From Bacteroidaceae bacterium (GTDB lineage Bacteria > Bacteroidota > Bacteroidia > Bacteroidales > Bacteroidaceae): 36,768 nt of DNA. Numbering within the stretch: the first letter of the stretch is position 1; each line of letters begins with the position of its first letter. Position numbers and translations under genes: made by a program. The notes below the pieces were generated by a model, which worked only from the letters and a program-made list of their open reading frames with translations, was not told the origin of the DNA and searched no databases. The stretch lies in contig JAFTUK010000046.1 in assembly GCA_017466325.1 (NCBI GenBank), positions 1 through 36,768 on the forward strand, given 5' to 3'. Shown piece by piece: positions 2,796-36,752 of this stretch.

Positions 2796-3533
2796 TTATG
2801 TATTTGATTTTGGTTGTTTGGTTTGTTGCTTTTGTTTGGTATTTGCCTTCCCGGTTATTCCCAACAGGTCGGGGCGGCGTTCTTTGGTTCGCTTGAGGGA
2901 TTGTTCCAGTTCCCATTCCTTTATCTTGGCTTCGTGGCCGGAAAGCAGGATGTCGGGCACAGCCCCCCAGTCCTTGTACTCGCGCGGTCGCGTGTAGACG
3001 GGTGCTTCCAGCAGGTTGTCCTGGAACGAGTCGGACAGGGCCGACTGCTCGTCGCCTATGACTCCGGGGATTATGCGCACTATGGCATCGGTCATTACGG
3101 CTGCCGCCAGTTCTCCGCCCGTCAGCACATAGTCGCCGATGGACACCTCGCGGGTGATGAGCCGCTCGCGTATGCGGTAGTCGATGCCCTTGTAGTGTCC
3201 GCACAGGATGATGATGTTCTCCTTCAGGGAGAGTTCGTTGGCCATGGGTTGGTCAAACTGTTCTCCGTCGGGTGCCGTGAAGATTATTTCGTCGTAGTGG
3301 CGCTCGCTCATCAGTTTGGAGATGCACAGGTCCACTGGTTCGCACTGGATGACCATGCCTGCCGAACCGCCGAAAGGGTAGTCGTCCACACGGCGCCAGC
3401 GGTTGGTGGAGTAGTCGCGCAGATTGTGGACATGGATTTCCACCAGTCCTTTCTTCTGGCCACGCCCCACGATGCTTTCCTCGGTGAAGGGAAGCACCAG
3501 TTCGGGGCATACGGTAATGATGTCTATTCTCAT
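2796..3533 (-). CDS. trmD: tRNA (guanine-37-N1)-methyltransferase TrmD
   Basis: TrmD uses SAM to methylate G37 beside the anticodon and prevents +1 frameshifting; it is essential in most bacteria. The 245-residue product starts [12 protein letters not shown] and carries the trefoil-knot SAM motifs: [12 protein letters not shown] near residue 57, [24 protein letters not shown] and IIPGVIGDE, followed by LEAPVYTRP and [13 protein letters not shown]. Length is normal except for a basic/Gln-rich tail ([10 protein letters not shown]) that looks dispensable. I chose the ATG at 3531-3533 because the motif-based start matches the family; an open extension upstream runs into the promoter. A promoter ends about 10 nt before this ATG, so the mRNA should be nearly leaderless. 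Unusually for trmD, no rimM or rplS lies beside it. Confidence 0.97.
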
Positions 3534-3542
3534 AGTTGAGGG

Positions 3543-3573
3543 CAAAGTTACGAATAAGCGAGCGAAATACAAA
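3543..3573 (-). promoter_or_regulatory. trmD promoter (Bacteroidetes -33/-7)
   Basis: Read on the minus strand this is TTTG (3573-3570), 19 nt, then TAACTTTG (3550-3543), an exact fit to the Bacteroidetes consensus TTTG-N19-TAnnTTTG. It lies at the gene-proximal end of the 86-bp tandem array, within and just beyond its first unit. Confidence 0.8.
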
Positions 3574-3889
3574 ATAAAGCTTGTTTTATTTTGGATTTCC
3601 GAGCGAAAGTAACTTAGAAACATAGTTTCAGAGTTAGGAATAAGCGAGCGAAGTACAAAATAAAGCTTGTTTTATTTTGGCTTTCCGAGCGAAAGTAACT
3701 TAGAAACATAGTTTCAGAGTTACGAATAAGCGAGCGAAGTACAAAATAAAGTCTGTTTTATTTTGGATTTCCGAGCGAAAGTAACTTAGAAACATAGTAT
3801 CAGAGTTACGAATAAGCGAGCGAAATACAAAATAAAGTCCCTTTAATTTTGAATTTCCGAGTGAAAGTAACTTAGAAACGCAGTTTCAA
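3546..3889. repeat. Four tandem 86-bp repeats, each with a hairpin and a promoter-like element
   Basis: Units begin at 3546, 3632, 3718 and 3804, exactly 86 bp apart, and a few bases of a fifth start at 3890. Each unit contains agcgagcga, an inverted repeat caaaataaa/tttattttg (3570-3578 with 3585-3593 in unit 1; the stem extends to about 15 bp with one mismatch), and cgagcgaaagtaacttag. On the minus strand every unit holds TTTG-N19-TAACT(T/C)TG. Only unit 1 has the perfect -7 box; units 2-4 have TAACTCTG. Unit 4 is the most diverged in the hairpin. There are no spacers, so this is not CRISPR. Confidence 0.95.
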
Positions 3890-29695: not shown

Positions 29696-29724
29696 CGCAT
29701 ATTATACACCTTTACTTGCATAAT

Positions 29725-29761
29725 CCCAAATCGCTCATTAGACTGTTATGTGCTAACGAAG
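29725..29761. repeat. Diverged copy of the TCATTAG hairpin repeat
   Basis: Contains cccaaatcgctcattag, an 11-nt loop actgttatgtg and ctaacga. It is an inverted, diverged copy of 30125-30159 (shared aaatcgct and cattag) and related to 1211-1254 and 11300-11328. Confidence 0.65.
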
Positions 29762-30124: not shown

Positions 30125-30159
30125 TCTCATTAGCGCGTAACGGTCTAATGAAGCGATTT
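30125..30159. repeat. TCATTAG hairpin repeat
   Basis: Tcattag and ctaatga form a perfect 7-bp stem around cgcgtaacggt, the same 11-nt loop as at 11300-11328. Confidence 0.75.
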
Positions 30160-30219
30160 GTGTTTATTATATTTTTACACTTTTTTTTGCAACGTTCCTC
30201 TAATGTGGTTTTTTTTTGG

Positions 30220-34423: not shown

Positions 34424-34433
34424 CATTGAAAGT

Positions 34434-34519
34434 AAGGAGGGTAAGGAGAGGAGAGAAAGTAAGGATGGTAAGGAAAGTAGAGAGAGGATAGAGAGTAAGG
34501 AGAGGAGAGAAAGTAAGGA
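34434..34519. repeat. Purine-rich repeat tract
   Basis: A G/A-only-like tract of gtaagga, gagaga and ggatag motifs. The 34 nt at 34468-34501 recur exactly at 36694-36727. A relative lies at 32578-32610. No gene is seen in it. Confidence 0.8.
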
Positions 34520-34568
34520 GGTTCAAAAATAAAGGTTATTATCACCATAACGTCAATGACTGATTCGG
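34520..34568. repeat. Copy of dispersed ggttcaaaaataaag repeat
   Basis: Matches 29916-29965 in the same orientation. It lies just before the promoter region of the AAA-ATPase gene. Confidence 0.75.
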
Positions 34569-34616: not shown

Positions 34617-35744
34617 ATGAAGTACCCTATAGGCATACAACAGTTTGAGAAATTGCGTGAAGAGGATTGGGTTTATGTAGACAAGACTATGCAAATCTAC
34701 AATTTGGTTCAGGGAGGCACATGCTATTTCCTAAGCCGTCCCCGCCGTTTCGGTAAGAGCATGCTGTTGTCTACACTGGAAGCCTATTTCCAGGGAAAGA
34801 AGCATCTGTTCCGTGGACTTGCCATAGAACAGCTGGAAACGGAATGGGCAGAGCATGCCGTGCTGCATATAGACCTGAATGCCAAGCCATTCCAAAAAAT
34901 AGAGGATTTATATGACTTGCTTAACGACCAGCTTACCATTTACGAGAAGATGTATGACAGCGCGGCTGTGGACAAAAGTCCCGAAGGTCGCCTGCGCCAG
35001 CTGATACGTGCTGCCAAGCAGAAGACCGGTCGCAATGTAGTTGTTCTTGTTGACGAATACGACAAGCCCATGCTTCAGGCCATAGGCAACGAGGAGTTGC
35101 AGACGGAGTTCCGCAATGCTCTGAAGGCCTTTTATGGTGTATTGAAGAGTGCCGACGGTGACTTGCGTTTTGCCATGCTGACGGGTGTGACCAAGTTCAG
35201 CAAGGTGAGTGTGTTCAGCGACCTGAACAACCTGAAGGACATATCTATGAGTCCGCACTTCCATGATATATGCGGTATTACGGAAGCAGAACTTCATGCA
35301 GTCTTTGACGAGGAAGTTTGCAAACTGGCAGTTGTCAATGAGCAAACCAAAGAGGAGGCATACGAAACATTGCGCCAGCGTTACGACGGTTATCATTTCT
35401 GCCCCAATTCTTCAGGACTGTATAACCCGTTCAGTGTTCTGCTGACATTGAGCGAGCGTCAGTACGGCAGTTACTGGTTCAGCACGGGTACACCAACATA
35501 TTTGGTACAGCTGATGAAGGAGGCAGACCTGAATCCCTCGGCTCTGTCTGGCTACGAGGCAAGCGCCAGCGAACTGGATAGCATACAGATCAGTGTGGAC
35601 AATCCCATAGCAGTGCTGTATCAGAGCGGTTATCTTACCATTAAAGGATATGACAAGGAGGTACAGCTATATTCCTTGGATTTTCCTAACAAGGAGGTTG
35701 AAGAAGGGTTTAAGCATTTAACGAGATATGTTAATGCTCGTTGA
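34617..35744 (+). pseudogene. AAA-ATPase-like (pfam09820) gene lacking its nuclease half
   Basis: The N-terminal 366 residues match the AAA-ATPase_like/PDDEXK_9 family, common in Bacteroidales and of unknown role. Marks are KYPIGIQQFEKLREEDWVYV, the altered P-loop SRPRRFGKSML (residues 40-50), Walker-B-like VVLVDEYDKPML, and ISMSPHFHDICGITEAEL. Full proteins are about 510-530 residues and end in a PDDEXK_9 nuclease domain; here similarity stops after FPNKEVEEGF and the frame ends in ten unrelated residues at 35744. The missing C-terminus reappears as a 21-codon remnant at 36201-36266. It may still make a stable ATPase domain, but I judge it a broken gene. Confidence 0.85.
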
Positions 35745-35750
35745 AAGTTT

Positions 35751-35769
35751 AACGTTGAAGGTTTAACGA
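35751..35769. repeat. 19-bp inverted repeat, left of four-helix-bundle gene
   Basis: AACGTTGAAGGTTTAACGA. The reverse complement matches 36162-36180 at 18 of 19 positions. Confidence 0.9.
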
Positions 35770-35786
35770 AATATTCAAATCATATA

Positions 35787-36155
35787 ATGGAGGAGTTTAC
35801 TTATCGGAAGTTGCGAGTATATCAGCAAAGTAAGAAACTTGTACTTGTTATTTATGATTTACTAAAGTATTTTCCAAAAGAAGAAAATTATGCACTTTGT
35901 GACCAATTAAGACGTGCGGTTATCTCTATTCCCTCTAATATAGCAGAAGGTATTAGTAGGGCATCTCATAAAGAGCAAGTGCATTTTCTTGAAATTTCTT
36001 TTGGTTCTTTGAATGAAGTAATGTGCCAAATAGAGATTGCTAATGAATTGGGAATAATTAGTCAAGAGAATTTGTTATTAGTTGAGGATTATTATAAATT
36101 AATTTCCCAAATGCTTTCTGGTCTAAGGCGTTCAATAATAGAGGGGCATGCCTGA
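35787..36155 (+). CDS. Four-helix-bundle protein (S23/IVP family)
   Basis: The 122-residue protein is a member of the S23/intervening-sequence family (TIGR02436), first seen in inserts within 23S rRNA genes and related to Avd proteins of diversity-generating retroelements. The signature SIPSNIAEGISRASHKEQ (residues ~52-69) and the opening FTYRKLRVYQQSKKLVL fit well. The gene is much more AT-rich than its neighbours, suggesting acquisition. It lies between 19-bp inverted repeats and occupies the place of the AAA-ATPase nuclease domain. The molecular function of these proteins is not established; nucleic-acid binding is suspected. Confidence 0.92.
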   Translation: MEEFTYRKLRVYQQSKKLVLVIYDLLKYFPKEENYALCDQLRRAVISIPSNIAEGISRASHKEQVHFLEISFGSLNEVMCQIEIANELGIISQENLLLVEDYYKLISQMLSGLRRSIIEGHA

Positions 36156-36161
36156 TTTTAA

Positions 36162-36180
36162 TCGTTCAACCTTCAACGTT
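36162..36180. repeat. 19-bp inverted repeat, right of four-helix-bundle gene
   Basis: TCGTTCAACCTTCAACGTT, reverse complement of the left arm with one mismatch. Imperfect further units (ttcatcgttcaacg) continue to 36192. Confidence 0.9.
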
Positions 36181-36200
36181 CATCGTTCAACGTTTTTATA

Positions 36201-36266
36201 ATGATAGGTGCCAACATCACCAGTGCAACACGAAACATCGACCGCTGGGTGGTGGAGAACGATTAA
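36201..36266 (+). pseudogene. Detached C-terminus of the AAA-ATPase/PDDEXK_9 gene
   Basis: Codons from 36201 read MIGANITSATRNIDRWVVEND and stop at TAA 36264. This matches the usual end of the AAA-ATPase/PDDEXK_9 family, where IGVNFS-x-ETRNI-x-x-W-like residues close the protein. The distance from the start of the truncated gene at 34617 is an exact multiple of three. It is too short to function alone. Confidence 0.65.
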
Positions 36267-36653: not shown

Positions 36654-36689
36654 TTGAATCAGTGTTATCGTGTTGAAGGTAATTACATC

Positions 36690-36752
36690 TATAGTAAGGA
36701 AAGTAGAGAGAGGATAGAGAGTAAGGATGGTAGAGAGATTAGAGAAAGTGGA
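36690..36752. repeat. Purine-rich repeat tract, second copy
   Basis: Contains the exact 34-nt copy (36694-36727) of 34468-34501, followed by related gagaga sequence and gattaacgtt at the window edge. Confidence 0.8.

Follow-up and report, generated by a model that had tools for sequence, protein, structure and literature searches.

The four-helix-bundle (S23/IVP) gene near the right end of the window (the whole stretch of DNA that was analysed, that is, all 36,768 nt of contig C41) is part of a small cassette with inverted ends, and comparable cassettes occur between the genes of operons in many other genomes. There is good support for a repeat-bounded unit that has spread. At orthologous gene junctions, the cassette is either there in full or missing altogether, similar arms accompany similar S23 genes at unrelated sites, and the two arms stay complementary while their sequence drifts. 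The explanation towards which we lean, if only just, is that of an IVS-type cassette, an operon-dwelling relative of the intervening sequence (IVS) of 23S rRNA with its own inverted heptamer arms as the ends of the unit. By analogy with that element, excision of the cassette from the transcript at the RNA level is plausible.

The S23 cassette of the window

An earlier note, made from the sequence of the window, had assigned the gene at 35787-36155 to the S23/IVP type. This assignment was borne out by a profile search, in which the ORF matches PF05635 (E 1.2e-34), and by the match to NCBIfam TIGR02436 (four helix bundle protein). The solved structural relative is 2GSC (E 7.1e-19, five chains). 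A match to the bAvd family (PF22296) is weak (E 6.6e-6) and its 27 bits lie under the family cut-off of 40. Of the ORFs with 60 aa or more, S23 alone lies completely inside the cassette; neither a transposase ORF nor any other second ORF of that length was found there.

The 19-bp inverted repeats with one mismatch that had been described on both sides of the gene (35751-35769 and 36162-36180) were recovered, and they can be extended to 31 nt at 87% identity (35739-35769 and 36162-36192). The repeats are arrays of a unit of about 7 nt, and the cassette spans about 35712-36202 (Table 1). The local-alignment score of the two arms is 19. None of 2000 dinucleotide shuffles of both flanks reached this value (shuffle maximum 14), which rules out a chance event. 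The gene had also been called AT-rich compared with its surroundings, and rightly so: its GC content is 0.331 and that of the cassette 0.320, whereas the window as a whole has 0.469, and only 0.5% of 369-bp segments are equally AT-rich. The RNA of the cassette folds better than shuffled sequences (z -3.5). The Rfam search of the window gave no match, so there is no rRNA match at this site.

Table 1. Position of the cassette, its parts and the interrupted ATPase gene in the window
Feature	Position	Strand	Basis or remark
AAA-ATPase, N-terminal part (PF09820)	34617..35744	+	last homologous base 35711; ORF stops inside the left end of the cassette
Cassette (left arm, S23 gene, right arm)	35712..36202		paralog homology ends at 35711 and restarts at 36203
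Left arm, degenerate tandem repeat of about 7 nt, GTTTAAC / GTTGAAG type	35739..35769	+	repeat alignment
S23/IVP four-helix-bundle gene, 122 aa	35787..36155	+	PF05635, TIGR02436, 2GSC relative
Right arm, inverted partner, TTCAACG / TTCATCG type	36162..36192	-	repeat alignment
Relic of the last codons, same ATPase family	36203..36257	+	80% to paralog

Inverted arms at other S23 loci

Two sets of loci were compared. The genus set holds 95 loci with 98 S23 ORFs, of which 93 have long enough flanks, at PF05635 places among the matches listed; it is made up of 29 entries taken as loci, 60 chosen stretches (which favour strong PF05635 matches far from contig ends) and 6 loci of the window's own genome. 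The broad set consists of the best 80 of 582 relatives of the genus S23 proteins, with 83 S23 flank pairs from Bacteroidota, Verrucomicrobia, Proteobacteria, Nitrospirota, Clostridia, Chloroflexi, CPR and others. Gene calling simply took the longest ORF. In the arm test, the upstream flank was locally aligned with the reverse-complemented downstream flank, and flanks swapped between loci served as the null.

The median complementarity is 22 within a locus and 8 after swapping (93 genus loci). The 99% swap level (17) is exceeded at 65 of the 93 loci, compared to 9 of 275 control ORFs taken from these loci, and the same is observed in 49 of 83 flank pairs (level: 13) from many phyla among the best 80 of 582 relatives. 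Matches in direct orientation pass the threshold in 7/93 genus and 7/83 broad cases (the latter again among the best 80 of 582). The genus loci are not independent because many are found at shared sites; counted by site, 37 of 57 clusters have at least one locus with arms. An arm pair over the threshold is absent at 28/93 genus loci (about 30%) and in 20/57 site clusters. In the window's own genome, each of four S23 loci has its own short tandem repeats, which face each other in inverted order over the gene in at least three cases, while two matches under the Pfam cut-off (L005 and L006) score 10 and 8 and have no arm pair. Three of four cyanobacterial plasmid loci possess one (scores of 25, 25 and 31; the fourth scores 10). 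Both loci with a score of 25 belong to one strain, on two plasmids, and their surroundings are almost the same.

The median arm length is 33 nt. The best period is 7 in 39/62 genus loci with arms and in 28/46 such loci among the best 80 of 582 relatives, followed by 8. Left arms contain more G than C in 49/61 and 43/45 loci with a difference (genus set and best 80 of 582, respectively) and are C-poor across phyla. The earlier note had suggested a search for the 19-mer and its inverted partner around other four-helix-bundle genes. It is the inverted pair that recurs, at the frequencies given above, and not the 19-mer: the arms of unrelated S23 genes differ in their heptamer words, and a common 19-bp end sequence is thereby ruled out. 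Stop codons were also considered as the purpose of the heptamers and rejected. All-frame stops in left arms stand at 0.65 against 0.54 in a periodic null for the genus set (p 0.10), and at 0.39 against 0.30 for the best 80 of 582 relatives (p 0.20); a plain-shuffle null had pointed to a greater excess than the periodic one.

Gene junctions with and without the cassette

Cassettes are found at frdA/frdB, ychF/lgt, serC/serA, gcvH/gcvPA and mlaE/ATPase, as well as at porV/ispF, etfA-like/acyl-CoA dehydrogenase-like, ClC channel/fmt and murE/mraY. They fit closely between their neighbours: where the operon arrangement is clear (42 cases), a median of 5 nt separates the preceding stop codon from the left arm, and one of 8 nt the right arm from the next start. 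At co-directional genus junctions, the S23 gene is on the strand of the transcript in 71 cases and on the opposite strand in 3 (p 7e-18). With one locus per site cluster, the counts are 44 and 1 (p 3e-12), and at co-directional junctions of the best 80 of 582 relatives they are 62 and 4 (L189 and L202, whose contigs match genus contigs in length, were left out of this count only). At a cyanobacterial locus (L359), S23 runs opposite to both of its neighbours, nrdB and nrdA. Arms are present at 15/20 loci where the neighbours are not both on the S23 strand, compared to 48/71 where they are.

Empty sites in relatives, which had been named as support for a mobile cassette, were indeed encountered in sister species. 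At frdA/frdB, 27 of 30 resolved junctions are empty (0-85 nt) and the other 3 hold a whole cassette of 465-535 bp. The flanks of the nearest empty junction (L121) and of a filled one (L115) are 96% identical, with a gap of 5 nt vs 535 nt, and no target duplication is evident by eye when empty and filled frdA/frdB junctions are compared. None of the 27 empty junctions contains an array of 7 or 8 nt units with a length of at least 21 nt; in three of them, a gap of 23-25 nt holds a CCTTAATCC-like stretch that is too short to call. Where frdA/frdB is occupied, it is by three distinct S23 groups (at most 52% identity between groups). At ychF/lgt, 6 of 28 resolved junctions are filled and 22 are without S23, four of which hold an array (L130, L139, L141 and L142). 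The array of L141 has the same sequence as a portion of the right arm in a filled relative and, judged by this identity, appears to be the leftover right arm of an S23 cassette. A matching inverted pair was found at none of the empty junctions examined. That the insertion is clean, with an arm on either side, and that one junction has been occupied repeatedly both argue for a unit.

Arms and S23 genes change together

For the genus set, neighbourhoods were classed by all flank ORFs. Between unrelated neighbourhoods, arm similarity is 7.0 at an S23 identity below 45% (n=1923). It is 9.9 at 55-65% and 12.9 at 65-75%, and reaches 24.2 among the nine pairs at 75-85%, which come from about four or five groups. 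The S23 proteins at porV/ispF and at etfA-like/acyl-CoA dehydrogenase-like are 80-82% identical, and those flanking a single sugar transporter, by galM and galK, are 79% identical. A moved near-identical copy of a cassette was not found among the loci compared.

Within one site, the two arms of a locus follow each other. At 55-65% S23 identity they score 26.6 within a locus vs 11.1 across loci, and this holds in 15/15 pairs; the within-locus match is also the better one in 8/10 pairs at 65-75% and in 15/16 at 75-85% identity. The S23 gene itself has a dN/dS of 0.03-0.07 in eight pairs and of 0.16 in one (9 of 15 pairs were computable; with one exception, dS is high). The proposal of a mobile cassette is partly supported: the unit is bounded by repeats, inverted pairs recur around S23 genes, the arms go with the gene (24.2 vs 7.0) and sister species have empty sites. 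At locus L092 (G005:C87:24587-30092), two S23 cassettes that are 82.6% identical flank one gene, and related genes lie downstream of both; from this arrangement, the pair is likely a tandem duplication.

Heptamer arrays and a second gene family

The cassette idea had been made to depend on whether the repeats are common without such genes. The answer differs for single arrays and inverted pairs. Single arrays are common: of 41 strict heptamer arrays in 816 kb of two genomes, 34 are more than 400 bp away from S23. Solo arrays without S23 are abundant in stretches of G046, G051, G014, G045 and G000, with 60 in about 390 kb of G051. The idea that they are copies of the S23 arms of their own genome gave a mixed picture, being clear in G014 and not seen in G046 and G045; for G051 and G000, the arms of another genome match equally well. 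Inverted pairs at cassette spacing are another matter. Blind scans of 1.60 Mb (two scans that differ in threshold, 17 and 18, and in reach, 900 and 1500 bp) yielded 31 inverted pairs, 12 of which enclose S23 and 2 a GxxExxY gene. When the enclosed length is restricted to 340-600 bp, a range fixed after the scan results were seen, 15 pairs are left: 12 with S23, 2 with GxxExxY and 1 with neither. The inverted pair at cassette spacing is more S23-specific than the single array. The scanned 1.60 Mb hold 22 S23-type genes, so 10 of these are without a cassette-spaced pair.

The one pair with neither lies in the window (29720-29756 and 30130-30167) and surrounds 373 bp; it has no heptamer period. 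Inverted heptamer arms were also observed round 229 and 200 bp without S23 at G000:C14:467-765 and G000:C19:58971-59249, respectively. These two are possibly hollow or MITE-like derivatives.

Genes of the GxxExxY family (PF13366, PDDEXK_3) lie between inverted degenerate tandem repeats as well, with a period of 9 nt in 13 of 16 scored cases (genus loci L330-L355, e.g. L349, L352 and L341). Their median flank score is 17 vs 8 after swapping, and only 5/29 exceed their own 99% level because the repeat words are shared between loci. Arms that are specific to S23 are ruled out by these comparable 9-nt inverted arms. Since GxxExxY genes have them too, inverted arms do not depend on S23, and GxxExxY would seem, from its flanks, to be a second gene family in a similar cassette.

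RNA stem or DNA element

If the cassette is an IVS-type element, the two arms would base-pair in the operon transcript and S23 would occupy the loop of the resulting stem, much as in the 23S rRNA IVS. By analogy, RNase III would cut at this stem and the host genes would remain on separate translatable mRNAs. The S23 protein may bind the RNA or DNA ends of its own cassette and might serve its upkeep and rare spread, while the enzyme that moves the cassette may act in trans. An excess of G·U pairs, as proof of an RNA stem, was not found. In the sense RNA of the genus arm helices, there are 53 G·U vs 95 A·C (composition predicts 0.89), and for the best 80 of 582 relatives 65 vs 100 (composition predicts 0.93), the reverse of the trend that selection for a stem in the sense RNA would give. 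In view of this, and of the arms retained at loci where the two neighbours do not both share the S23 strand, a serious rival is that the arms work as DNA or that one is copied from the other. In its full form, the rival holds that the arms act as DNA only, either as the terminal inverted repeats of a transposon-like, non-autonomous unit that an enzyme mobilises in trans or as DNA hairpins, with template switching to keep the arms alike and no RNA excision. The G-rich left arms and the resemblance of the two short S23-less pairs to MITEs agree with it as well. Yet the bias towards the sense strand (71:3, 44:1 and 62:4) is unexpected under a DNA role unless selection removes the other orientation, and neither a transposase nor a target duplication was found. 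We consider this explanation unlikely overall, though it is the foremost of the rivals.

If S23 were an ordinary useful host gene, with processing or regulatory RNA elements as arms, the cassettes would be inherited and not mobile; the low dN/dS at shared sites, where dS is high, and the retention of one site over several species fit this. It is nevertheless improbable, as distinct S23 lineages occupy the same junctions (at frdA/frdB, the three groups described above), the junctions are mostly empty and similar cassettes sit at unrelated sites. Alternatively, heptamer arrays could be commonplace and S23 genes could land between two pre-existing inverted arrays. The many strict arrays far from S23, the arrays in four S23-less ychF/lgt junctions and the resemblance of solo arrays in G014, and less clearly in G051, to their own S23 arms can be read in this way. 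However, the 27 empty frdA/frdB junctions are all without an array, no empty junction has a matching inverted pair, and arms accompany the S23 gene, which fills 12 of the 15 cassette-spaced pairs in 1.6 Mb; landing between ready-made arrays is accordingly very improbable. A gene flanked by inverted repeats also calls to mind an invertible phase switch, in which recombination between the arms flips S23. Such switches occur in Bacteroidales, but the orientation is not mixed (71:3 and 62:4), and with this bias an inversion switch is ruled out for practical purposes.

Comparison with known systems

IVS elements with S23 genes have been known in rRNA for decades. The closest description is that of the rRNA IVS of Coxiella burnetii, which according to PMC4990558 has a sense S23 ORF, a length of ~0.43 kb, a 28-bp terminal stem and excision by RNase III, as well as a low GC content and tandem heptamers before the ORF with a strain-variable copy number. 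The same paper describes the S23 protein of Xanthomonas as a homopentamer. The cassettes share the S23 ORF, complementary stem-forming ends, heptamers, sense orientation and low GC content with this element, and the likeness to rRNA IVS elements that the earlier note had drawn is supported by the ORF, the ends and the heptamers. Unlike the 23S rRNA IVS, they lie in gaps between protein genes (in the window, in an ATPase gene), often several per genome, and their heptamer words differ among loci; cutting of the cassettes by RNase III is an analogy. An rRNA match was found at 0/80 S23 loci of the broad set (best 80 of 582 relatives, chosen as nearest to the genus S23). As none of these 80 loci lies in rRNA, the link to rRNA rests on the anatomy described in one paper (PMC4990558). 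By location, the cassette is not a 23S rRNA IVS and is best described as its operon-living relative. On a KSB1 contig (L244), two Acido-Lenti-1 RNA matches (2980-3025 and 3553-3598) were noticed near an S23 gene.

Heptamer repeats have been reported in other bacteria. The GGGAATC heptamers of Xanthomonas are intergenic, with 70 and 75 close inverted pairs in two genomes; PMC4692102 follows one word per genome and finds the repeats generally without a link to mobile elements. They resemble the arrays described here in being intergenic and, in part, inverted pairs. The term 'S23' has 0 occurrences in PMC4692102. The tandem TAACTGA heptamers of Beggiatoaceae lie mostly between genes and are also discussed for Bacteroidetes and cyanobacteria in PMC4679880; unlike the S23 inverted pairs, they form 169 sets of direct repeats and one indirect set.

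With diversity-generating retroelements (DGRs), the cassette shares a four-helix protein, by the weak match to bAvd under the cut-off. Unlike in DGRs, there is no reverse transcriptase inside the cassette of the window, which contains no ORF besides S23. Inverted ends and presence or absence at given sites are shared with MITEs and insertion sequences (IS). These, however, differ from the cassette in its lack of a transposase, of a fixed end sequence and of a visible target duplication, and in its strong orientation bias. Instead of the fixed terminal inverted repeat of an IS or MITE, the arms differ by locus, as the score of 8 for swapped loci indicates. By the features tested, the S23 cassette is not an IS, a MITE or an invertible element.

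A broader reading, which we put forward tentatively as possible but doubtful, is that S23 cassettes are a widespread minimal mobile class, consisting of one four-helix protein of ~120 aa and self-matching, changing heptamer arms, which spreads from one operon junction to another without its own transposase. The rRNA IVS would then be a rare landing site, and many solo heptamer arrays would be debris. S23 cassettes may also supply a source for part of the abundant intergenic heptamer repeats. In PMC4990558, the function and origin of the IVS, mobility included, are called unclear. The cassettes provide many related units, often several per genome, with empty sites, co-evolving arms and a conserved protein, and with such units available, the questions of IVS function and of IVS origin, mobility included, become testable. 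Among the open-licence literature matches listed, none connects inverted heptamer arms with S23 genes that lie elsewhere than in rRNA.

The truncated ATPase gene at the window site

The cassette had been placed inside a broken AAA-ATPase gene, with the cut gene on its left and the last codons of the same family on its right. Both flanks do belong to one family, and the window does show a cassette in a protein-coding gene. This is an unusual case, the usual home being a short gap between co-directional genes, and the break is not fresh. The genome of the window contains an intact paralog of 513 aa (G000:C53:55512-57053). Homology to it ends at window position 35711 and restarts at 36203; in between, the window lacks 390 nt that the paralog has, and the 491-bp cassette stands in their place. 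Two other species (G086 and G084) have the identical ATPase junction, also with an S23 gene and arms, and the C-terminal part is lost at the same codon in all three (window 34617-35744; L297 and L298). The dN/dS of the N-terminal part is 0.08 for the window vs G086 and 0.07 for G086 vs G084 (2 of 3 pairs computable, with high dS), and at this level it does not look like a decaying pseudogene. Given the junction common to three species and the low dN/dS, the truncation is probably old and still constrained. Purine-rich tandem repeats with copies spaced 9 nt apart, in direct orientation, were observed on both sides of the ATPase/S23 region (34424-34522 and 36686-36748).
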